Shown: in pieces, positions 12,470 to 38,904 of the stretch
Layout of the letters: each line of letters opens with the position of its first letter
How positions within the stretch are numbered: the first letter of the stretch is position 1
Source: a virus
Virus record (IMG/VR): IMGVR_UViG_3300031885_000023
Location: 1-50,181 of that record
DNA length: 50,181 bases
Reading direction: 5' to 3' (one strand)
Translations under genes and position numbers: made by a program
The notes under the pieces: model-generated
Seen by the model: the letters and a program-made list of their open reading frames with translations, nothing else
Told to the model about the DNA's origin: nothing
Database searches by the model: none

Positions 12470-14194
<1,725 letters not shown>

Positions 14195-14207: not shown

Positions 14208-15251
14208 ATGAAAATCGCCGTATATGCGATTAGCAAAAATGAAGAGCAGTTTGTAAAGACATTCTGCGAGTCCAGTAAGTTAGCAGATTATATTATGATC
14301 GCCGACACGGGATCAACCGACGGAACGGTCGAGGAGGCAAGAAAGTATGGGGCTGTTGTTCATAGCATTTGCATTTCTCCTTGGCGCTTCGATCATGCTA
14401 GGAACGCCGCTTTGGCGCTACTCCCCGCTGACATCGATGTCTGCATATCGCTAGATTTAGACGAGCGTTTAGAGCCAGGATGGCGAGATGAGATAGAACG
14501 TGTGTGGAAGTCAGACACCACGCGCATGAGTTATAAGTTTGACTGGGGTCACGGCAAAGTGTTTTACAGCACCAAGCTACACAGCCGTAAGGGTTACCAC
14601 TGGCACCACCCGTGCCATGAGTACATTAGGCCAGACCACAGGACAAAAGAGATCTGGGCGTACAGCGAGATGTTACTCATCACGCACCACCCAGACGAGA
14701 CAAAGTCAAGGGGTCAGTACTTAGACCTGCTTGAGATGTCTGTTAAAGAAGACCCAAGCTGCCCACGCAATGCGTTTTATTATGCTAGGGAGTTAACGTA
14801 CTACCAGCGTTGGAATGAGGCGATTGTGGCACTGCAAAAGTATTTAGCGATGCCAGAGGCGACGTGGAACAACGAGCGTGCATACGCCATGAGGTTGATC
14901 GGCAACTGCTACGACAACCTTGGACACGACGGCATCGGTTGGTACCGTCGTGCGGTGTCCGAAGACGCGGGCGTGCGTGAGACTTGGTGTGAGTTAGCAC
15001 AGGCGTGCTACAGAAAAGGATTATGGGAGGAGTGTTACGGCGCGGCATGTAACGCACTCAAGCTGACAGAGTGTACCTATACGTACACGATCGATGCAAA
15101 CAACTGGAAGGCAAGGCCGCACGACTTGGCGGCAATCGCAGCCTACCGTTTAGGATTTAAAGAAGAAGCAATTAAGCACGGCACTAACGCCTTGGAGTTT
15201 GAACCCAATAACAAGAGATTAATAAAAAACCTCGAGTATTATAAGGAATAA
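14208..15251 (+). CDS. family 2-type glycosyltransferase with TPR-like C-terminus
   Basis: The 347 residues start with a GT-A fold: YAISKNEEQFV (residues 5-15), DTGSTDGT (34-41) for nucleotide-sugar binding, and a DLDER acidic motif (about 85-89) standing for DxD. The second half (about 170-345) has helical repeats resembling TPRs (YQRWNEAIVALQKYL, then CELAQACYRKGLWEEC and LGFKEEAIKHGTNAL). It should transfer a sugar to an acceptor. Lying between a Thr-rich collagen-like gene and a fibre gene, it may glycosylate phage fibre proteins, although modification of host glycans cannot be excluded. A weak AGGGGTAG site precedes the ATG. Confidence 0.85.
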   Translation: MKIAVYAISKNEEQFVKTFCESSKLADYIMIADTGSTDGTVEEARKYGAVVHSICISPWRFDHARNAALALLPADIDVCISLDLDERLEPGWRDEIERVWKSDTTRMSYKFDWGHGKVFYSTKLHSRKGYHWHHPCHEYIRPDHRTKEIWAYSEMLLITHHPDETKSRGQYLDLLEMSVKEDPSCPRNAFYYARELTYYQRWNEAIVALQKYLAMPEATWNNERAYAMRLIGNCYDNLGHDGIGWYRRAVSEDAGVRETWCELAQACYRKGLWEECYGAACNALKLTECTYTYTIDANNWKARPHDLAAIAAYRLGFKEEAIKHGTNALEFEPNNKRLIKNLEYYKE

Positions 15252-21199: not shown

Positions 21200-21940
21200 A
21201 TGGACGGCTTTAAATCATCACCAAAGATGCAGTGCTTCAAAGATGGGGGTTCTGTGAAATATAAGTCACGTCACTCTGAAAAATCAGAGATGAGCGAAGA
21301 CATTGCACAAGACAAAAAAGTCGTGAAGAAGGCATTCTCTATGCACGACAAGCAGTCACACGAGGGTGAGAAGACTAACCTCTCCAAACTTAAGAGTGGC
21401 GGCCGCATGAAAAAAGAAGGCGGCTGCGTTGGTCGCTATAAAGACGGCGGGACAATTAAAACCAAAGTAGCAAAAACCAAAAAAGCCAAGGCGCCATCAA
21501 AGGCCGCGATCAAGCCAGCCATGTCAAACATTGCCGAGCCAGCACCAGCAATGAGCCCAGATATGGGCATGATGCCTCCCCCAATGATGAAGAAGGGTGG
21601 CTACGCAAAAAAGTGTGCTGAGGGTGGCTCATTAAAATCTGTTGACACAGAAGAGAACCCTGGCCTGGCCAAACTCCCAACCAACGTCCGTAACAAGATG
21701 GGCTACGCTAAAAAAGGCGGTGAAGTAAAAAAGTATGCTGACGGCGGCATGGTAGGACAAGGCGCAATCAGCAACGTTGAAAAAATGCGTTTAGCCAACC
21801 GCGCTAAAAACCGAGCCATGCTAAGCCCGATGCAGCAAAAAGAATTAGACGCACAAGAGGCAGCAGCACAAAAAGGTGCTATGGGTGGTGGATTAAGCAG
21901 CATGATGGGTCGTATGAAAAAAGGCGGAAAGACTTGCTAA
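21200..21940 (+). CDS. basic Lys/Gly-rich protein with repeated Gly-Gly motifs
   Basis: A 246-residue, strongly basic, low-complexity protein. At least five copies of an x-x-x-Gly-Gly-x-hydrophobic motif occur (FKDGGSV about 13-19, YKDGGTI, CAEGGSL, AKKGGEV, YADGGMV), plus Met/Pro-rich ([13 protein letters not shown]) and Lys/Ala-rich linkers. The charge suggests binding to packaged DNA or nucleic acid. The same motif marks the internal virion proteins, so it is probably packaged. An AAGGAAC site precedes the ATG. No enzyme domain is visible. Confidence 0.65.
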
Positions 21941-27676: not shown

Positions 27677-28183
27677 GTGACGTCTTTTGTAGACTCCAAA
27701 AAAAAGGAGCTATCGCAAGAAGAGATTATTAAAATTGCTGTCAAAGAAACTGGCAGCAAGCACACTGTCGAGCAGGTCAAGGCCAGTCTAAGCGCAGAGG
27801 CGTATGAGTTGGGTGCTGTAATGATTAGACAGGGTAACACCATATTTGTGGTACACCAAGACAAGTCTAACCCGACTGCTGCATTATTTAGAGCATTAAA
27901 CGCCGACACCATCCCCAATTATATAAATAACTGTTTTGAATTTGTAAAAGCTGTTGGGATGACTGGTTTTCAATATCTAGTTGTTGAGTTTGACGATAAA
28001 TCTTTATTAGCAATTTTTGAACGCGTCTATCGTAAAAAACCATTTGAAAAAATGGGATATGCTGTTCAGCAATCATCAAAAACCGGTCGCTACCGAGTTA
28101 CTATTAATTTAGGACAAACCCCAAAAACAAAACAGTCCGAGTTGCATAAGCAACAGCTTGCCCAGGGGGCTGCTAAACCATGA
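27677..28183 (+). CDS. internal virion protein, possibly T7 gp13-like
   Basis: A 168-residue protein with an acetyltransferase-like look: ELGAVMIRQGNTIFVVHQD (about residues 48-66), a helix with NCFEFVKAVGMTGFQYLVV, and KKPFEKMGYAVQQ near residue 120. T7 gp13, a small virion-assembly protein, has a comparable length and GNAT-like fold. It directly precedes the large internal protein and overlaps it by ATGA. The link to gp13 is inference from order and layout. Confidence 0.5.
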   Translation: MTSFVDSKKKELSQEEIIKIAVKETGSKHTVEQVKASLSAEAYELGAVMIRQGNTIFVVHQDKSNPTAALFRALNADTIPNYINNCFEFVKAVGMTGFQYLVVEFDDKSLLAIFERVYRKKPFEKMGYAVQQSSKTGRYRVTINLGQTPKTKQSELHKQQLAQGAAKP

Positions 28184-31100
28184 GCGCGGCAGTAGACTTC
28201 GTTAGTGATGTTGGTGAATTTGTTGGCGACGCATTTAAAGTTGTTGGTGATATTACCATGGACGCCGTGCAAGCGGTTGGTGCAGGAATTGAAAGTGTAG
28301 GTCAAGCTGTGGGTGGTGTTATTGAAGGTGCTCTTAATGACCCCATAGGTACAATTGCAAAAGTAGCGGCTATAGCAACACAACAGTATTGGATGCTGCC
28401 GTTAATATCTGCTGCAACAGTAGTGGCAAACGGCGGTGATTTAGGGCAAGCCGCATTGGCCGCTGGTATATCATACGCTGGCATGTATATTGCGTCTGGT
28501 GTATCGGACTATTTAGTTTCGGGCGCAGAATCGTCATTGACGGGTGTTGAAAACCTTTCTGATGGATCGTCGCTATTTTCGTACAGTGATGGCAGCACCA
28601 TGCTTCAAACCGCGGATGGTTTGACTAATTTTACCGCACCGACAACAATTACTGGATCGTTAAATACCGCAATATCAAACGCTGCAGGAAACGCGGCGAC
28701 CACGGCCTTACGTGGTGGTGATCTTAGTGAAATATTAACCTCTGGTTTAACTGGAGGCGCGGGCACTTATGTTAATTTAGAATCAACACAAGGTTTAAAA
28801 GATTTAGGACTGGCTGCACCAATTGCAAACGTGCTTGGTACTACGTCTGGCGCTGTAACCCGAGGTGCGTTGTCCGGCCAAGATGCTGGTGAAGTATTTA
28901 ACACAGCACTTATTAACAATATTATTAGTACCAGTTTGTCTCAAGCTGGTAACGAAATTAAAAAGACAGATGTCTTTAAAGGGCTACAAAAATCTGTAAA
29001 CGAAACAGTTAACGAGTTTAAAGATTCGTTTAATAGCTCTAAACAAAAGTTCTTAGATGAGTTAAATAAAAATGATGATCTGACTGCAAAAAGCCAAGAA
29101 CAGATCGCTGGTTTAATAGAACAAAGCAACACATTAAAATCTGAGGCGGACAGCTACAGAGACGGCACACTAACGCCGGCACAAGAAATAGCGCAAAAAG
29201 CGTATGAAAAAGCATCTACCTCATATGATGAGTACAAAACAAAGTCTGCTGAGTTTAGTAATTTAGTATCGCAGTATGATGAGGCAAAAGCTGCGGGGAA
29301 TACCGAGTTAGCAAATAGTCTGGCCGATCAAGCAAACGCATTGATTCCGGCGCTAAACTCCGTAACAGATAAATATAATGCAGATTATAGTGTATACGAT
29401 TCTGCAAAAACTGATTTTGAAACAAAAAATCAAACGTATGTAGGTTACATAGATAAATCTAAAGAGTTAGACTCACAGTACTCTAATATTAATAAACAGT
29501 TACAAGACCAGAATGAAATAACAAAACAAGCTAGTAACGAGTTTAACACTGTCTATAATCAGATCCAAGAAAACGCAAATAATGTAGCAAAACAAGTAGA
29601 CAGTGCATACGAGACTGCATCAAAGTATGGCTCAATTGCTAAAGACACATTTAAGGATGTTTATTTAGGGACTGGCGATTTAAACAAAGCGATAAATCTT
29701 TCACAGCAGGTAAACTCACTGCCAGAAGATAACCAGCGTATGTATGAGTTTGCTACTAGCTTTGGTTTGCGTCCAGAAGACGCGCTTGAGTTTGCGCCGG
29801 ATGTGTCTAAAATGTCAGTTGTTGCACAGCAGACATTCTACGATTCTCTGGCAGAAAACCCAGACACAGCAAATGCTTTTAACACAGCACAACAAATTAA
29901 CAGCCTTGACAAAGCACAACAAGACTCATTCTTTAATGCTAAGATCCAAGGTTTAGATACGGCTCAGGCTCTTGATATATCCAGTAACATTAGCGGCTTA
30001 TCTAAGGAACAGCAAAATACATATATTGACACGGTTAAGTCTGGCCTTGGGTCACCACTGGCATCTATATTTGCCGCGGCACAGGGATTAACTGGCCAGG
30101 GCACACAACTTGGTAGTTCAATTGATCAAGATTTAGCCTCACTAAAAACACCAGAAGCTAAAGCAGCATATCAGTATTATTTAAATGCTCAGTTTGATCC
30201 TAAAGAAGCGCTGTCCATGGCACAAGGTGCAGAGCAATCTATTTTGGCGCAGGGCACTGGTTCGCAATACGCTTCACTTTCAGGCGACATTAAATACGGC
30301 GAGAGTGGTGGAGTTGGTGATGTGCAGTTACCAAAAGTTAATGTACGACCAGCCGCTGATTTATTAGTTCAAGGCACTGGAACAACTGGCGGAATAACAC
30401 CCGAAGAACTTGAGGCATATCGCAAAGAGGGTATACCCGAAGAAGACATTCAAAAATTAGTTAGCCAATATGGTACGGCCCCATCTGCTACATCAACAGA
30501 TCAGCCAGATTATTATCAGAGTCTAATTGACAGAATATTTACATCACCCACAACTAAAGCAAAGACTCTAGCCAAAGCTGCTCCAAGTACGGGTGGGCAA
30601 GAACCAACACCTGGCGGACAAACGCCAACGCAACCAAGCGTGTTGCCAGAGGGGTACAGCTACACAGCACCACCCGCGGGCATATACACCACGGTGCAAC
30701 CAAAAGATGGCTACCGTTACGCGTATGGCCCCAGCGGTGACCGAATTGAAGTGCCCGGCACTGGCGGCGGTGGAGGCACACAACCCGGCACTGGTGTCGG
30801 CGGTGGTACAGAGCCAGGGGCTGGCGGCGGCGGTGGCACACAACCTGGCACCGGGGCTGGCGGTGGCACCGGAGGAACTGGTACAGGTGGAACAGGTAAC
30901 ATTGGATTTGGTATCGGCGGTATTGGTGGCGGTGGATTTGCTATACCGGGCGGGTTTGGTTTATTGTCACAAGACGCTACAGGCGGAATTAAAAATTTAA
31001 CACCAGGATTAACAGAGAGAATGGACTATAATTTAGCTGGTTTGTCGTCTGATAAAGACAATGTAAACCCAATGTACAACGCACCACAAATTATTTCACA

Positions 31101-31587
31101 GATGGCTGCTGGTGGGTCTACGTACGATCCGTTTTCTACTAAAGATACATCTGGAGGCAGTGGAATTGGTAGCGGTATCAGTGCGGCCCTAACACCTGGA
31201 TTAACCAAGGCACAGATTAATTATATCTTAACTGGTATGCCCGACTATCTACAAGGTAGAGCAGAGGGTGGTCATATTGAGAACCACAACCCAGAGTTTT
31301 ATTCAGAGGGTGGTCTAAGCTCGATGGAAAACCGTTATGTAAAAGGTAACGGCGACGGCACTAGCGATGAAGTCCCAGCAATGTTGGCAAATGGTGAATT
31401 TGTTATTCCAGCTGACGTAGTCTCCTCATTAGGTAACGGTAGTAACGATTCAGGCGCTAGCGTACTAGACGAATTTTTAAAGGTAATAAGAGACCACAAA
31501 CGTAAGGCAGATAGTAAAAATCTACCGCCTGACAGCAAGGGACCCTTAGCATATTTAGTAGACGCACAACGTAAAGCAAAGGCATAA
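28180..31587 (+). CDS. large internal virion (ejection) protein
   Basis: A 1135-residue protein. Residues 1-110 are hydrophobic amphipathic helices. Residues 250-450 are a long coiled coil. Helical repeats follow (about 480-700). A Gly-rich linker (about 855-920) precedes a C-terminal part with the Gly-Gly motifs AAGGSTY, RAEGGHI and YSEGGLS. The segment GDGTSDEVPAMLANGEFVIP (about residues 1060-1080) is recurrent in phage internal and tape-measure proteins. It probably forms part of the core that is ejected to build a DNA channel across the envelope. No lytic transglycosylase motif is seen. Confidence 0.72.
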   Translation: MSAAVDFVSDVGEFVGDAFKVVGDITMDAVQAVGAGIESVGQAVGGVIEGALNDPIGTIAKVAAIATQQYWMLPLISAATVVANGGDLGQAALAAGISYAGMYIASGVSDYLVSGAESSLTGVENLSDGSSLFSYSDGSTMLQTADGLTNFTAPTTITGSLNTAISNAAGNAATTALRGGDLSEILTSGLTGGAGTYVNLESTQGLKDLGLAAPIANVLGTTSGAVTRGALSGQDAGEVFNTALINNIISTSLSQAGNEIKKTDVFKGLQKSVNETVNEFKDSFNSSKQKFLDELNKNDDLTAKSQEQIAGLIEQSNTLKSEADSYRDGTLTPAQEIAQKAYEKASTSYDEYKTKSAEFSNLVSQYDEAKAAGNTELANSLADQANALIPALNSVTDKYNADYSVYDSAKTDFETKNQTYVGYIDKSKELDSQYSNINKQLQDQNEITKQASNEFNTVYNQIQENANNVAKQVDSAYETASKYGSIAKDTFKDVYLGTGDLNKAINLSQQVNSLPEDNQRMYEFATSFGLRPEDALEFAPDVSKMSVVAQQTFYDSLAENPDTANAFNTAQQINSLDKAQQDSFFNAKIQGLDTAQALDISSNISGLSKEQQNTYIDTVKSGLGSPLASIFAAAQGLTGQGTQLGSSIDQDLASLKTPEAKAAYQYYLNAQFDPKEALSMAQGAEQSILAQGTGSQYASLSGDIKYGESGGVGDVQLPKVNVRPAADLLVQGTGTTGGITPEELEAYRKEGIPEEDIQKLVSQYGTAPSATSTDQPDYYQSLIDRIFTSPTTKAKTLAKAAPSTGGQEPTPGGQTPTQPSVLPEGYSYTAPPAGIYTTVQPKDGYRYAYGPSGDRIEVPGTGGGGGTQPGTGVGGGTEPGAGGGGGTQPGTGAGGGTGGTGTGGTGNIGFGIGGIGGGGFAIPGGFGLLSQDATGGIKNLTPGLTERMDYNLAGLSSDKDNVNPMYNAPQIISQMAAGGSTYDPFSTKDTSGGSGIGSGISAALTPGLTKAQINYILTGMPDYLQGRAEGGHIENHNPEFYSEGGLSSMENRYVKGNGDGTSDEVPAMLANGEFVIPADVVSSLGNGSNDSGASVLDEFLKVIRDHKRKADSKNLPPDSKGPLAYLVDAQRKAKA

Positions 31588-32548: not shown

Positions 32549-34318
32549 ATGTCAGGCTTAGACTACATTAAAGGTTACGAAGAGGGTGGTAGCACAGAAC
32601 CACCTGTTGAGACACCAATTACCGCGGTTGGTAAAGCCGTACAGTCAAAAGGTAAATACGCACTTCCTACGCCAACCGGCGCCGCTGGTGTTGATCAAAG
32701 CATACTAGAGCGTATGCAAAAGTTAATTGACGAGCGTGAGGCACAAAAGGGTGGCTTCATGGAGTCTATGCGAGACGCGCAGGCTTGGTGGTCCGGTGGT
32801 GAAAAGGGTCCATTTCAAGCGCTTTCTCAACGCGCCAAAGAGCGTGAAGAGCAAGAGGCTACCACGTTTGGTATGCGTCGTGATCTAGCACAATACAAGG
32901 TAGGTCAAGAGCAAGCACGTAATTTAGACAAGCAATTATTTGGTGCTCCAGCACCTGCCGCCGCTGCCCAACCTGGCGCAGCCGGTGTAACACAACCCGG
33001 TGCGGCACAACCTGGTGGTGTTGTAGCCCCTGCACAAACCGGTGGACTATTAGGACTTATTAGAGACCCGGGCCTGCGTCAATCTATCGCGGTACAGGCA
33101 CAATCTGGTGATCGCCAAGGTGCCATGAAGTCAATTCAAAGTTATTTAGCTAAAAACGCCGAAGATCCGGTAATGGTTAAAGAATTACGGTTTATGATTG
33201 ACAACAATTTAATTGATCCTAAATTAGTTCCTCCGGCAGTACTAACTAAATTTGTTGGGTCTGGTGCGTTTGTGCCAAACGACGTCCGTGGCCCCGGCGG
33301 CACAATGCAGACAACTCCCCTTAGCTCAGCACAAGCTGTGTCACCATCAACTCCATTACCTGGCGTTCGTACCACGCCAGCTGCCGCTGCTCCTGCCGCT
33401 GCTCCTGCCGCTGCTCCTGCCGCTGCTCCTGCCGCTGCTCCTGCCGCTGCTCCTGCCGCTGCTCCTGCCGCTGCGGCACCAAGCCCAGCAACCGGACCGC
33501 AGCCAATCGCTCAAGTACAACCCCTACCAAAAGTGGGAGCTCCTGCCGCAGCTAAACCAGCCGCTCCAGTGGGTGCCGGTGGATTTGCTCCTGGTAGTAA
33601 AGAAGAGCTTGATATTCGTAAAGAAGGCATCGCCACTGAATTGCAAGAGACTGGTAAAGATATTGCTAAAGACCGTGCCGCTACGGTTGAGGCTGGGTCA
33701 AACGCCGGTGAGCGTCTGGCTTCTGTACAATACCTTAACAACTTAGTGACAACTAATCCAAAAGCGTTTGGTGTCTTACAAAAACCAGGGGTGATTAGTG
33801 CCGTGCTTGGTGCCGCTGAAGACGGTGCCAATATTGGTAACCTTGGAGCCGTGGGTATCGCAGGCATGAGCACTGCCGTACGTAAGGCAATGCCCGGCGC
33901 TACGCAGGCTGATATTGACGCCGCACAAAAAGCGACTCGTGAGTTTTCCTTAATGCAACTTCAAGCCGCCAAAATTTACCTTAAAGGTCAAGGCGCCGTA
34001 TCTGACGCAGAGCGTCAGTTAATCCGTGAACTAGCCGGTAGCGTTAAAAACTCTCCAGAGGCTGTCCGTGACTTCTTAAAATGGAGCGAGATTCGTGCTA
34101 ACTTTGATAAACAAAACGGCGCCGCCTATAAAGAATTTAATAGGCGTACTCCTAACGTATCGTTTGAGCGCTACAAAGAGACACCAGAATACGAGAGACT
34201 TAAGTCTGAGTATGAGGCAAACCTAAAGAATTTTGTGGCATCAAGCACAGGCACAAAAGCAGCACCTACATCAGACATAAATTCAATATTAAATAAATAC
34301 CCCAAAAAGGTTAAGTAA
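32549..34318 (+). CDS. internal virion protein with Gly-Gly motif and Ala/Pro repeat
   Basis: The 589 residues start with YEEGGST (about residues 10-16), a copy of the Gly-Gly motif. A charged helical region (about 50-130, GGFMESMRDAQAWWSGGE) precedes an Ala/Pro linker (about 278-310) coded by a 12-bp tandem repeat, then a helical C-terminal domain (about 345-560) with LRFMIDNN and ATREFSLMQLQAAKIYLKGQ. No enzyme is recognised. It ends one base into the next gene. An ejected core protein is the likeliest role. Confidence 0.62.
   Translation: MSGLDYIKGYEEGGSTEPPVETPITAVGKAVQSKGKYALPTPTGAAGVDQSILERMQKLIDEREAQKGGFMESMRDAQAWWSGGEKGPFQALSQRAKEREEQEATTFGMRRDLAQYKVGQEQARNLDKQLFGAPAPAAAAQPGAAGVTQPGAAQPGGVVAPAQTGGLLGLIRDPGLRQSIAVQAQSGDRQGAMKSIQSYLAKNAEDPVMVKELRFMIDNNLIDPKLVPPAVLTKFVGSGAFVPNDVRGPGGTMQTTPLSSAQAVSPSTPLPGVRTTPAAAAPAAAPAAAPAAAPAAAPAAAPAAAPAAAAPSPATGPQPIAQVQPLPKVGAPAAAKPAAPVGAGGFAPGSKEELDIRKEGIATELQETGKDIAKDRAATVEAGSNAGERLASVQYLNNLVTTNPKAFGVLQKPGVISAVLGAAEDGANIGNLGAVGIAGMSTAVRKAMPGATQADIDAAQKATREFSLMQLQAAKIYLKGQGAVSDAERQLIRELAGSVKNSPEAVRDFLKWSEIRANFDKQNGAAYKEFNRRTPNVSFERYKETPEYERLKSEYEANLKNFVASSTGTKAAPTSDINSILNKYPKKVK
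33383..33466 (+). repeat. seven tandem 12-bp units in an internal virion gene
   Basis: GCCGCTGCTCCT repeats seven times, coding for (Ala-Ala-Ala-Pro)n within the linker of the 32549-34318 gene. It is in frame, so slippage would lengthen or shorten the linker by four residues without a frameshift. Confidence 0.93.
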
Positions 34319-36246
34319 TGAATCCAAAATTACAAGAAGCCTATGACGCATTAAAACAAGCGGACGCCGCGGGTAATGCAGAAGACGCCCAACAGATCGC
34401 GGACTACATCCGTGAGCTGCAGAACCAAGAAATGCTTGGCTCTGGTGACGAGAGCATGATGCGCAATCCAGTAGCCGCCGGTGCTGTTGGCGCTATTGCT
34501 GGCCCTGTTGCTGGTAAGGTATTAGAAACTGCCTACGGTCCTAAGGGCGTCCCAACTGGTGCACCAACTACCGCACCTGGAGCTGGATCGCCTGGACAAA
34601 AATGGGCAGCAAAAACTGGATATGGTGCTGGCACTGGGGCAACGGTTGAAAACGTTGTTGAAGAATTTAAAAAACGTGAGGGCCCGTTAGGTAAGGGTAA
34701 AGTAACCAGTAAAATTACTGGTGGTCCTTTAGGTGGTTCTGCAGCGATGGAGCAGATTGCTGCCAAAGAAGCAGACGCCGCTCGCTTTGCACAGATGCGT
34801 GCCGCTAACCAAATGGCAGCTCAAAAAGCCTCGTCCGTACCTGGTCGTATTGCACAAGCCACGGCAGGTAAAATGCCACTATTACTAAAATCCGCTGCTG
34901 GCGCTGGCGCTGGTATACAGGGCGCCGATGCCTACAATCGATTTGACGAGGGAGACTTCTTAGGTGGTCTAATTGGTGGCATTGGCGCGGCAGGATCTGC
35001 CGCGTCGTTAATCCCACACCCTGTCACACGCATTGGTGGCACCGCTGTTGGTATGGGCGCGGGTGCATTAAACGCATACATTGATTATCTTAAATCTAAG
35101 TCGCAGCCACAGCAGCCAGCGGCTCAGCCACAACCACAGCCTCAGGGTATGGCTACAGGGGGGCTAGTTGGCTATGCAAAAGGCAAAGCAGTAAAAAAGT
35201 TATCTGAGGTTTTGATACCTCGTGAAGGACAAACACTACTCGGCACAATGGCTGATCGCACCAAGGCGACAGAAGGGTTCTCCGGGGGTCCTGGATTTAT
35301 TAATTTACATCCAGAGTACACTTGGGCGATGGATTCACCCGGTGCGGCTAATAGACTATTGAATGCTGTTAACCAAGCTGGTGGTCCAAATCGTTCTGTG
35401 GTTTCTCCCATGTTAATGAGCACTACGGCACATCGCTCTAATCGTCCAGTGTTTGAAAAAATGTATTCTGAACTGTTAGAAGACATTCGTTCTGGCAAAG
35501 TAACGCCGCAACAAATAGAAGCATTAAACGCAAAGATGGCCGGTAAGAAAGAACTATCTGGCGCACCTGATATTACTAGCAAAGAGTTTTTAGAGTTTGC
35601 AAATGCGTTTAAGCGTCGTGGTGCGGTCGCTGACGTCATGAGTCAAAAGCGAATTGGAGCACTTGATTTACAAAGACACTTAGATGAAACAATTGATCCA
35701 GCATTACGTGAGGCTGAGTTAGGGGCCATTGGTCCTCAATTATTTACTGCAGAATCACAAATACTAAAACCAGATGTTCACCCCGGTTACAAGAATTTAA
35801 TCCTTGGACAAAAAGGCGAAGATCAATTTACACCGGTTCCTCGTGAATTTTTATTTCGCGACATAGAAGCCAAAGCCATGAAAGAACTTGGTCGTCCTTT
35901 ATCAGATTACAATTATCGTCAATCAGTTGGCATACCAACACAGGTTATTGATGAAAAATTATTACGTTCATTACAAACGTTAGGCTATAAAAAAGGCGGC
36001 TCAACAACACCAGCATGGCAACGTTCTGCGGGCAAGAGCCCATCGGGTGGCTTGAACGCACTAGGACGTGCGTCGTACAAGCGCGAGACTGGCGGCGAGC
36101 TAAAGGCACCACAGCCAGAGGGTGGCTCACGTAAGAAGTCATTCTGTGCTAGGATGGGGGGTATGAAGAAAAAGTTAACCTCTAGCGAGACAGCAAACGA
36201 TCCAGACTCACGCATCAACAAAGCACTTCGTAAGTGGAAGTGCTAA
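34318..36246 (+). CDS. polyvalent-type protein with DUF6321-like C-terminus
   Basis: A 642-residue mosaic. Residues 1-250 are Gly/Ala-rich with a hydrophobic stretch (about 185-245). MATGGLV (about 277-283) is a Gly-Gly motif marking the start of a globular domain (about 290-560, REGQTLLGTMADRTKA and NLHPEYTWAMDSPGAANRLL) of the kind seen in large phage polyvalent proteins. YKKGGST (about 558) marks another boundary. The last 55 residues (KSFCARMGGMKKKLTSSETA and INKALRKWKC) match the DUF6321-type basic tail that many aquatic phage proteins carry. It probably travels inside the virion. Confidence 0.65.
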   Translation: MNPKLQEAYDALKQADAAGNAEDAQQIADYIRELQNQEMLGSGDESMMRNPVAAGAVGAIAGPVAGKVLETAYGPKGVPTGAPTTAPGAGSPGQKWAAKTGYGAGTGATVENVVEEFKKREGPLGKGKVTSKITGGPLGGSAAMEQIAAKEADAARFAQMRAANQMAAQKASSVPGRIAQATAGKMPLLLKSAAGAGAGIQGADAYNRFDEGDFLGGLIGGIGAAGSAASLIPHPVTRIGGTAVGMGAGALNAYIDYLKSKSQPQQPAAQPQPQPQGMATGGLVGYAKGKAVKKLSEVLIPREGQTLLGTMADRTKATEGFSGGPGFINLHPEYTWAMDSPGAANRLLNAVNQAGGPNRSVVSPMLMSTTAHRSNRPVFEKMYSELLEDIRSGKVTPQQIEALNAKMAGKKELSGAPDITSKEFLEFANAFKRRGAVADVMSQKRIGALDLQRHLDETIDPALREAELGAIGPQLFTAESQILKPDVHPGYKNLILGQKGEDQFTPVPREFLFRDIEAKAMKELGRPLSDYNYRQSVGIPTQVIDEKLLRSLQTLGYKKGGSTTPAWQRSAGKSPSGGLNALGRASYKRETGGELKAPQPEGGSRKKSFCARMGGMKKKLTSSETANDPDSRINKALRKWKC

Positions 36247-38904
36247 ATGCCAAAGCTAACACCTGCACAAATGAAGGCGGCTGTTGAGGAGTTTAAGAAA
36301 AAGTTTACTCCTGGTTTTTATCACGGCAGCCCGTCGCCAAATATCAAATCGTTTGACCCAACCAAGTCAAGTAAACCCGAGGAGTACATAACTCCTGGCG
36401 TGACATTTCTGACAAAAAAACCCAGCTTTGCCCACGACTACATGCCGACAAGAGGTACGGCATCTCAGATGTTTGGTCAACCAGACCAGTACGCTACTGG
36501 GGCAACGATGTACCCAGTAAGCGCAAACCTTGGCAAACAGTTTGATTTTGATACGCCCGAAGGTCGAGCAGTTGCAAAGTCGTTTCTTAAAGAGCGCTTG
36601 ATACCGCAAGAGGGTGAAAAGAAAGCCGCTAACTGGTTAGCAGGCATGCAAGATGAATTAAACACATGGAAGTCACTGGAGCACCCAGACTTTTTAGAAC
36701 ACCTAAAGAACCAAGGATACAATAGCTTTGCGGTCAAAGAGGCAGGCATTAACAACGTTGGTATGTTTGAATCAAAAAACATCCGGGGTAAGTTTGCTAA
36801 ATACAACCCCGAAGAAGCTGAGTCACCAGATTTTATGAAGGCCGAAGGTGGTCCCGTTGGCTACGCGCCTGGTGGTAAGGTTGGTGCCTTGGCTCAGCTT
36901 GGTAAAGCACTAGCCAGAAACCCACACGGCCAAGATCCCAAAGTAGCTCAGGCACTAGAAGAGTACCTCAAGGGCAACATCAGCCAAGAAGAACGCATTC
37001 GTATTATGAATCAATATCTGCCTATGCGTAAATGGTCTGAACTGCCACCTAACTACACTGACGAGCAGATTAGAAACGCCTTAATGGCAAATAAACAATC
37101 CAAAGCATTGGCGTCTGTACCGGCTGGTGCTAAAGTAGGTAACCGTTTAGATATACCAGCATATACCCAACAGGGTGTATATGTTGACACCACGCACGAC
37201 GTTGCTGGTAAACCAATTAGCTACGGCAGGACTGGTCATCTTAAAGACGTTGAGTTTAGTTCTAAGCCCAACCAGGCGGTCCGTGTAGGCCTCGGAACTA
37301 AAGAGCAGGCCCTGACCCCTATGGGAGCTGAGATCGGCTCTGCAAAGTCTCCCTTTGCGCTTATCAAGGGCACTAACGTTGGGACATCGGATGATGAAGT
37401 TCGCCGCATGATGGCGGAGATGTTAAAAGATCCTCGCTATACACAGATCGGTATGGACCCACGCCGGCACTCTCAGTTCTACGACAAGAGCACTGGGTTA
37501 CCGGTGTTTAAAGCAGAAGAAAAACTACAAAGTGGTCCGTTGATTTTAGCACCACGTAAAGATCTAGAGATAACAGACTGGAACGACCCACGCCTAGAGC
37601 TTACAGATTTTCCTGGTAAGAAATATGCTGGCGGTGGTAAAGTAAACGCAGCGGTTGAACTGGCAAAAAAGATTGCGCCTAAGTTTAGCCTAGACGCAAT
37701 TAAAAAAATGCCGGTATCGTCGGCACAAAAACAAGTTCCCGTAGCAAGGGCGTTTCAAATGCTGTCATCGGAAAATGTTGATCCAAAGGTAAAGCAACAA
37801 ATTTTTAAGCAGTACCTGCAGATGAATCCAGATCTTGTTAGAAAGTCAGGAGCTACTAACTATGACGAGCTAACCCAGGCAGCCTATCAACAGATGGCTA
37901 AGGAGACAGCCGGTCAGTTCCAAGCGCTCCAGGGGTCTGGTGTTAAGTTATCGTTTGACCCAACCGGTGAGAAGGCATACAAGAGCTCCAAAGAGATGCT
38001 CGAGGATGCACTGCAAAATAAACAGCTAACAGTATTCCAGGGTGGTGAACCACACCCAGCGCTAGGTAAAGAAGCAAACGAACAGTTCAGGGCCGTGCAC
38101 GATTACTTTGGTCATGGCACCACTGGCGCATCGTTTGGTCCTAAGGGTGAAGAGCTAGCCTACGGCGCGCACTCACAGATGTACTCGCCACTGGCACGCC
38201 TAGCGGCTGCGACTGAGACGCGAGGCCAAAACTCTTTAGTTAGCTATTCTGGTATGAACGAAGAGTTGATCAATGCAATGAACCAATTAAAAGCCCAGCG
38301 TGAGCAGTTAATGAAATCTGGTGGTGACCCATCTACTATTAATGATGAGCTTGTTAAACTAGGTCAACAGTTTAAGTACGCACCACAGAAGCCATTGATT
38401 CTGCCACCAGAGCAGATTGATATTAACTACCAAGGATTTGCGGCTGGTGGCGCCGCTAAGAAAGTACTTGAGCACGCTAGGTCACTGCCGTTTGTACACT
38501 TCTCTAAAGCCCCAGGTATTAACCAACTTGACCCTGCCATGTACGGCACCGGCATCAAGGGCGCGGAGGCATCTCGCCTGGCAGACGCGCCAGACATCAA
38601 GCCACGCTCCTACTTCTACGTAGACAAGCCTGGTGTTCGTCCAGAGCAAGGACTAGGCCCTCACAAATACCAAGGCACTGCAGAAGGTATCTACCCGCTG
38701 CACGAAGATCCGCTGGGGCTGTCTGCAATCGCCAAACAAAAAAGCCTTGACCCACATCTAATGAGCCAAGGCATACAACAAGTTAACGAGGCTCAACACC
38801 TCAACGAATTAGAACGTTTGATTAAGCGAGCCGGGTATCGTGGCTACGCTAATGATGACGTTGGCTTGCTGTTTGAAAAAACACCGGTTAAGAAGGCCGA
38901 TTAA
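36247..38904 (+). CDS. polyvalent-type protein with ADP-ribosyltransferase-like domains
   Basis: An 885-residue multidomain protein. Residues 20-185 look like an ADP-ribosyltransferase-like domain (FYHGSPSPNIKSFDP, GVTFLTKKPSFAHDY, then MFESKNIRGKFAKYNP). Gly-Gly motifs (KAEGGPV, YAPGGKV) separate it from a second domain (about 285-440; ISYGRTGHLKDVEF and QIGMDPRRHSQFYDKS) common in phage polyvalent proteins. YAGGGKV separates a third (about 470-700) with VHDYFGHGTTGASFGPKGEE and ATETRGQNSLVSYS. FAAGGAA introduces a last ART-like domain (about 735-880; FVHFSKAPGINQLDP). Such proteins are thought to be injected and to act on host targets or defences. The gene ends the + strand arm. Confidence 0.72.
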   Translation: MPKLTPAQMKAAVEEFKKKFTPGFYHGSPSPNIKSFDPTKSSKPEEYITPGVTFLTKKPSFAHDYMPTRGTASQMFGQPDQYATGATMYPVSANLGKQFDFDTPEGRAVAKSFLKERLIPQEGEKKAANWLAGMQDELNTWKSLEHPDFLEHLKNQGYNSFAVKEAGINNVGMFESKNIRGKFAKYNPEEAESPDFMKAEGGPVGYAPGGKVGALAQLGKALARNPHGQDPKVAQALEEYLKGNISQEERIRIMNQYLPMRKWSELPPNYTDEQIRNALMANKQSKALASVPAGAKVGNRLDIPAYTQQGVYVDTTHDVAGKPISYGRTGHLKDVEFSSKPNQAVRVGLGTKEQALTPMGAEIGSAKSPFALIKGTNVGTSDDEVRRMMAEMLKDPRYTQIGMDPRRHSQFYDKSTGLPVFKAEEKLQSGPLILAPRKDLEITDWNDPRLELTDFPGKKYAGGGKVNAAVELAKKIAPKFSLDAIKKMPVSSAQKQVPVARAFQMLSSENVDPKVKQQIFKQYLQMNPDLVRKSGATNYDELTQAAYQQMAKETAGQFQALQGSGVKLSFDPTGEKAYKSSKEMLEDALQNKQLTVFQGGEPHPALGKEANEQFRAVHDYFGHGTTGASFGPKGEELAYGAHSQMYSPLARLAAATETRGQNSLVSYSGMNEELINAMNQLKAQREQLMKSGGDPSTINDELVKLGQQFKYAPQKPLILPPEQIDINYQGFAAGGAAKKVLEHARSLPFVHFSKAPGINQLDPAMYGTGIKGAEASRLADAPDIKPRSYFYVDKPGVRPEQGLGPHKYQGTAEGIYPLHEDPLGLSAIAKQKSLDPHLMSQGIQQVNEAQHLNELERLIKRAGYRGYANDDVGLLFEKTPVKKAD

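Follow-up and report, generated by a model that had tools for sequence, protein, structure and literature searches.

The locus examined here raises the question of what an 885-residue protein, without any match in Pfam, NCBIfam or PADLOC, does for the phage that encodes it. The stretch of DNA analysed (the window), 50,181 bases long, comes from IMG/VR as a virus record and carries genes for terminase, portal, capsid, tail fibre, DNA polymerase and ribonucleotide reductase. The gene (36247-38904, + strand, as are all its parts and the upstream neighbours described below) starts with ATG, ends the rightward late (virion) cluster and faces the DNA polymerase gene in convergent orientation. It is not a chance open reading frame, since nine IMG/VR relatives cover all or most of its length at 63-95% identity. 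On balance, our results favour a virion-delivered polyvalent effector of a podovirus-like phage that includes an uncharacterised two-domain unit, D3-D4, and the protein is probably a package of effectors for the start of infection. Polyvalent proteins are a known kind; this one contains a member of a widespread, enzyme-like and uncharacterised domain family, D3, and the part of most interest in the protein is D3-D4.

An earlier note on this DNA had described four domains split by Gly-Gly motifs, and this description held. The GG pairs at residues 201, 209, 462 and 734 are the borders of D1 (residues 1-198; 36247-36840), D2 (213-458; 36883-37620), D3 (464-730; 37636-38436) and D4 (738-885; 38458-38901), and the motifs quoted at the time were found in place, RHSQFYDKS within D2 and both VHDYFGH and ETRGQNS within D3. 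Two more GG pairs (599 and 692) lie inside D3, so GG is not always a border. The full-length AlphaFold model (pLDDT 78, pTM 0.44) has its low-confidence stretches at three linkers (residues 190-228, 454-464 and 732-737), as would be expected of flexible linkers. The corresponding joints are joint 1 (KAEGGPVGYAPGGK; 36841-36882), joint 2 (YAGGGKV; 37621-37644) and joint 3 (FAAGGAA; 38437-38457). Related viral proteins hold 239 GG pairs per 11,144 linker residues and 351 per 59,955 domain residues, and this 3.7-fold higher density in linkers is a description rather than a test, as the copies are mutually related. The border consensus in these proteins is [YF]A[AGP]GGK[VI], and GG motifs are frequent elsewhere in the same phage too.

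The Gly-Gly linkers act as recombination or exchange joints that allow clean loss or swap of domains, because the DNA identity between relatives jumps there, for example from 45% to 94%. At joint 2, identity between the window and the relative L007 shifts from 49% in D2 to 83% in D3, and around joint 3 identity to the relative L004 is 95% in D3, falls to 62% at the joint itself and reaches 79% in D4. The comparison with L004 also gives 45% up to position 35985 and 94% directly after, a jump that falls at YKKGGST of the 642-aa gene immediately upstream (34318-36246; GG at 35995). More generally, the identity of that gene to its relatives goes from about 45% to about 90% at this GG. Its C-terminal module, DUF6321, is common to many phage proteins and, given this jump, is a swappable tail module as well. 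D3 is absent from the relatives L009, L198 and L206, D2 from L105 and both from L012, and D2 is placed in the upstream gene in L011; the reduced architectures among relatives are D1+D4, D1+D2+D4 and D1+D3+D4. L007 and L010 have an extra canonical ADP-ribosyltransferase (ART) domain together with a tail module of roughly 92 aa, and this module is present without the extra ART domain in L001-L004, L006 and L008. In L007 (8001-11501, residues 1075-1166) the C-terminal module, which occurs in several relatives and is not part of the window protein, reads YDYQTALAYGMGPTGTGEDLGHWGSVAP...VMLKGKAHETF. The earlier note had left out this exchange role of the linkers, as well as the fixed pairing of D3 with D4 and the reach of the D3 family beyond polyvalent proteins.

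Polyvalent proteins were described by Iyer et al. in 2017 as phage proteins with several disparate domains each, ART domains included (PMC5512222). The protein in the window is like them in that it joins at least two domains of disparate predicted activity in one polypeptide, shares its domains combinatorially, with strong shuffling, with other phage and prophage multidomain proteins, and is encoded in a neighbourhood of virion genes. Architecture, domain sharing and gene location thus bear out the polyvalent type proposed earlier. It is different in its near-fixed D3-D4 didomain, in its short Gly-Gly joints, in the lack of a Pfam family for D2, D3 and D4, and in that the Pfam search found neither a zincin-like metallopeptidase, which is common and not obligatory in polyvalent proteins, nor any other peptidase domain.

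The position of the gene points to delivery with the virion. It follows a 1135-aa late-cluster gene (28180-31587) with a weak match to a tail tape-measure family and a 589-aa gene (32549-34318) that matches weakly (E 1e-4) phrog_2534, annotated as 'released from the phage upon host infection', and that possibly codes for an ejection protein; this order is kept in close relatives. In 22 relatives that are more distant, the D3-D4 gene is flanked by those of the large terminase and the portal, and ARTs close to these two genes have been taken to indicate packaging in the head (PMC9503650). From these two kinds of location, near ejection-protein genes or flanked by terminase and portal, packaging of the protein in the virion seems probable. 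The deposited name of a D3 protein of Rhodococcus phage E3 (gp205, 'structural protein') and a fold match to a pre-ejectosome chain, both described below, add to this. D2, a mixed alpha/beta domain with the pattern HSQFYDKxTGxPV...GPL and medium to low confidence in the full-length model, has homologues in Roseobacter phage CRP-207 and podovirus ctYwJ313; in both the gene belongs to the head cluster and follows the portal gene at a short distance, separated from it by nothing but very small genes. Genes in this position often code for head-associated internal proteins.

ART-like domains had been suggested for both ends of the protein, and this claim stood at the level of the fold, with a catalytic triad that is incomplete by the published H-Y-D definition. 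D1 itself is below Pfam thresholds, but the ART-PolyVal model (PF18760) matches the D1 homologue of the relative L109 above the cut-off (E 5e-9) and two stretches in L007, and D1 keeps the strand order of canonical ART-PolyVal and can be aligned to it at YHG, at 'FxT' of strand 2 and at the C-terminal 'xxIRG/IKS' element. D4, with H751-x-S, R787-x-YFY791 and DP...GYxGY, is too divergent for the Pfam model; nevertheless, hhalign relates it to the D1/ART profile (prob 93%, E 3e-7) and its strand order in the model is common to D1. The structure prediction proposed as a check, in the form of the full-length model searched with Foldseek, also favours an ART fold in the protein. The best match of the whole model was a pre-ejectosome chain of cyanophage A4 (9k3a_B; E 0.016, prob 1.00), and ART matches included MbcT (prob 0.98), tankyrase (up to 0.99), PARP13 and the anti-CRISPR protein 6kyf (prob 0.97, TMt 0.57), with moderate E-values (0.02-0.3), modest TM-scores and an output that does not resolve which domain was matched. 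Anabaena phage A-4L, which we take to be phage A4, has in its ORF27 an ART-like stretch, 'SLYHGT', and the ART profile finds the ORF27 protein at E 1e-3; ORF27 is likely the gene of 9k3a_B. The structure 6kyf is presumably the ART AcrIF11. Anti-CRISPR ADP-ribosyltransferases of that type rank high among the structural matches, but sequence similarity to them is absent, and they are stand-alone, expressed proteins, whereas the ART in the window is a single domain within a larger protein that is presumably carried in the virion. A tblastn search of D1 against isolate phages gave no match, and profiles of D1, D2, D3 and D4 searched against PDB sequences returned no credible relative.

The active site published for the ART-PolyVal clade consists of His, Tyr and Asp (PMC5512222). 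The His of strand 1 is kept in both domains, nearly invariant in D1 (His26, in YHG) and invariant in D4 (His751). At the Tyr position of strand 2, D1 has Phe54, and D4 has either Tyr791 (93% conserved) or Tyr789. The Asp position of strand 5 is variable in D1, with Glu175 here and Lys in some relatives, and no conserved third, acidic residue was found in the D4 alignment. ART catalysis by these predicted folds is therefore not assured, and one or both of the domains may be non-catalytic.

D3 is all-helical and matches phrog_3170, a family with a function-less annotation, over residues 527-670 (E 2.8e-22). Its conserved pattern is N611-x3-R615-x2-H618-D619-x-F-G-H623...G634-E635...E657-x3-Q661, with residue numbers equal to the positions of alignment A2 plus 463. 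Among 72 diverse D3 sequences Y547, F614, R615, H618, D619, F621, G622, H623, G634, E635, E657 and Q661 are invariant, and N611 and F630 are nearly so. This invariance supports the suggestion, made from the motif, that HD-x-x-GH is an active or metal site; the VHDYFGH segment (residues 617-623; 38095-38115) is the presumed site, and our best guess for the metal ligands is H618 and H623 together with one or both of E635 and E657. The D3 AlphaFold model (pLDDT 95.9, pTM 0.91) is helical plus two short strands. Since Foldseek found no PDB entry with E below 0.25 for this model, the D3 fold may be new to structural biology; the search against BFVD returned phage polyvalent proteins and small phage proteins. 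D3 is a member of phrog_3170, but the family is broader than this phrog, as it includes forms encoded in bacterial chromosomes and is remotely linked to phrog_7806, which belongs to T7-like phages. A classical HD phosphohydrolase, an idea raised from the motif alone, was rejected; these enzymes have the pattern H...HD...D, to which the conserved residues of D3 do not fit.

D3 is closely coupled to D4. In a sample collected from the D3 side, D4 begins about 20 residues after D3 in about 75 viral loci; this sample was ranked by similarity to the window, and D4 was hence searched on its own. For this second sample a narrower set of D4 sequences was used as query, as the diverse D4 alignment A3 is without a conserved word, and D3 was found directly upstream in all 79 D4 copies, at a gap of 22 residues in 67 and of 20 in the remaining 12; in both samples the viruses are related to each other. 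D4 without D3 is limited to a few relatives of the window, whereas bacteria and actinophages commonly have D3 on its own, which indicates that D4 depends on D3 and not the reverse. D3-D4 is one unit, a nearly fixed didomain.

The distribution of D3 goes well beyond the relatives of the window. A short D3 word was found in at least 599 IMG/VR stretches, 587 of which were confirmed, and D3 is also encoded at 79 GTDB genome loci, where many of the genes are stand-alone (220-300 aa) and belong to Actinobacteria, Bacteroidota and Proteobacteria. About 200 isolate phages have D3, mostly mycobacteriophages of the Bixzunavirus type (some 190 mycobacteriophages). In Rhodococcus phage E3 it lies within gp205, deposited as 'structural protein'; DUF7178 is fused to or adjoins D3 in E3, I3, Skog and L024, and the gene in Skog is labelled glycosylase. 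Large prophage and phage proteins combine D3 with ART-PolyVal or GNAT domains. A remote homologue is the ORF7 family of Pseudomonas phage LKA1 (phrog_7806; 123 phage records), most members of which carry N-x2-FR-x2-HD-x-GH...E...DT-x-GQ; its profile aligns to D3 over 118 columns (hhalign prob 94.7%, E 6e-8). Its gene is the second of the genome in phi15, where it precedes the RNA polymerase gene, and the first in Issaku. A member of this family, which is the first or second gene of T7-like Pseudomonas phages, lies at L215 (3662-4228). Gene order thus fits an early-infection role for D3, which would be virion-borne, apparently, in one lineage and the product of a first-expressed gene in another. 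By these searches, D3 and its remote relatives comprise roughly a thousand viral and bacterial sequences, yet neither a function nor a Pfam family nor a relative of solved structure came to light for them. The T7-like Pseudomonas phages, which count here through the remote homologue, grow on harmless laboratory hosts.

The bacterial neighbours of D3 are of several kinds. At 27 loci, mostly of Micromonosporaceae, the genes for D3 and for a type I-like methylase (PADLOC MTase_I, 370 bits) form a divergent pair, often adjoining a kinase gene, cas3 and CRISPR-like arrays, the latter called by reading repeats and not by a CRISPR finder; the pair of methylase and D3 is possibly an undescribed defence module. 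The divergent pair at L031 (3452-6585) and about 26 similar loci has NFPF instead of NPPF in motif IV of the methylase, and loci of this type are often beside a UvrD-like helicase as well as the arrays, cas3 and kinase. At 11 loci (Aquimarina, Enterovibrio, Ruegeria and others) the D3 gene probably shares an operon with a gene for an NAD-binding AdoHcyase-like protein, and in many cases also with DUF3293. Conserved small operons of AdoHcyase-like gene, D3 and often DUF3293 were seen at L028 (4736-6675), L029, L058, L059, L064, L066, L071, L072, L073 and L080. Elsewhere in the Actinobacteria, D3 has genes for adenosine deaminase and TldD/PmbA in its vicinity. The operonic forms suggest a place in ordinary metabolism, which counts against the polyvalent-effector reading. 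The neighbouring type I methylase, adenosine deaminase and AdoHcyase-like gene, and the DUF7178 'glycosylase', are the reason for guessing at a nucleic-acid or nucleoside substrate, and the thread common to the bacterial neighbours could be nucleosides, methylated bases or adenine chemistry. A more ambitious reading would make D3 an unrecognised metalloenzyme superfamily with a fold absent from the PDB, acting at the start of infection either virion-borne, usually as D3-D4, or from the first genes of T7-like phages, with a nucleic-acid base or a nucleoside that takes part in host defence as its substrate. Bacteria, for their part, would keep chromosomal copies close to type I methylases and CRISPR loci, or within small operons. 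As a whole, this reading is conceivable but doubtful.

Other explanations have to be weighed against a polyvalent effector. The protein could be a structural or ejection protein in which degenerate ART-like domains and D3 serve as folded ballast or parts of a channel, as the placement of the gene among ejection-type genes, the pre-ejectosome chain at the top of the fold matches and the incomplete ART triads would allow. We consider this distinctly unlikely, since the active-site-like residues of D3 are invariant across phages and bacteria, D3 also occurs in bacterial operon genes and, in related form, in early phage proteins, none of which would plausibly serve in a virion, and the modules are freely lost or swapped, unlike a channel part. 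It is also unlikely, if somewhat less so, that the Gly-Gly linkers are protease sites at which the domains are cut apart before or after ejection. The P1 Dar proteins have been reported as cut and processing of polyvalent proteins has been proposed (PMC5512222), and the border consensus given above would suit such cleavage; but the protein brings no zincin or other peptidase domain of its own by Pfam, GG motifs are common elsewhere in the phage, and the near-constant spacing of D3 and D4 argues against separation of that pair. Cleavage would be compatible with the polyvalent-effector explanation, with a different working form of the protein.

The chemistry of D3 has a rival of its own, in which the domain belongs to, or is closely akin to, the pterin-dependent aromatic amino acid hydroxylases, with a non-haem iron held by the triad H618, H623 and E657 and an aromatic or base substrate to be hydroxylated. 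Both have the HDxFGH motif on a helix and the same helix-helix-helix order to a Glu two helices on, and chains of TPH1, TPH2 and PheH were recurrent in the Foldseek lists for the D3 and full-length models. With PheH sequences taken via PF00351, hhalign gave a prob of 64% (E 7e-5), against 0.1-0.3% for unrelated controls, and a profile score of 40.9, against a maximum of 21.3 among 40 shuffled decoys. However, masking of the six motif residues lowered the score to 16.2, inside the decoy range, so that the similarity is confined to the motif, and the folds are not superposed by Foldseek (TM about 0.12-0.14, rmsd over 16 A). In addition, E657 is out of register with the iron Glu of PheH, the second His and the Glu are 34 residues apart in D3 instead of about 40, and the two His of the T7-like branch are spaced as H-x3-H where D3 has H-x4-H. 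Neither a common fold nor homology outside the motif was found, and D3 has HDxxGH with a Glu at another spacing. We consider this relationship very unlikely; on the strength of the motif masking and the decoy scores we rejected the assignment of D3 to the aromatic amino acid hydroxylases, and convergence on a metal motif is the more likely explanation.

If the protein is a polyvalent effector, it would be synthesised late, enter the virion along with the ejection proteins and reach the host together with the DNA, as independent cargo domains strung on flexible Gly-Gly linkers that double as points of module exchange between phages. D1 and D4, both of ART fold, would bind NAD+ or a ligand of ADP-ribosyl type, and one or both of them probably modify a host target. 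D3 would be an enzyme made up of helices, in which a metal most likely sits at the cluster HD-x-F-G-H / GE / E-x3-Q. It would form one functional unit with D4, which would act on the substrate or product of D3. The protein as a whole may have an anti-defence role. Early-infection effectors decide phage survival against host defences and their chemistry is known for few; the strict pairing of D3 with D4 and the invariant residues lead to directly testable hypotheses, and the Gly-Gly joints reveal how effector modules pass between phages.

Three more genes of the window deserve mention. A lysine-rich protein of 246 aa (21200-21940), without a PHROG match, contains ten Gly-Gly motifs of the KKGG/ADGG type, as in the domain joints. 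A collagen-like tail-fibre protein with numerous PHROG matches is encoded at 12470-14194, and a gene of the beta-1,4-glycosyltransferase family (14208-15251; phrog_13126, E 3e-103) is flanked by tail-fibre genes.
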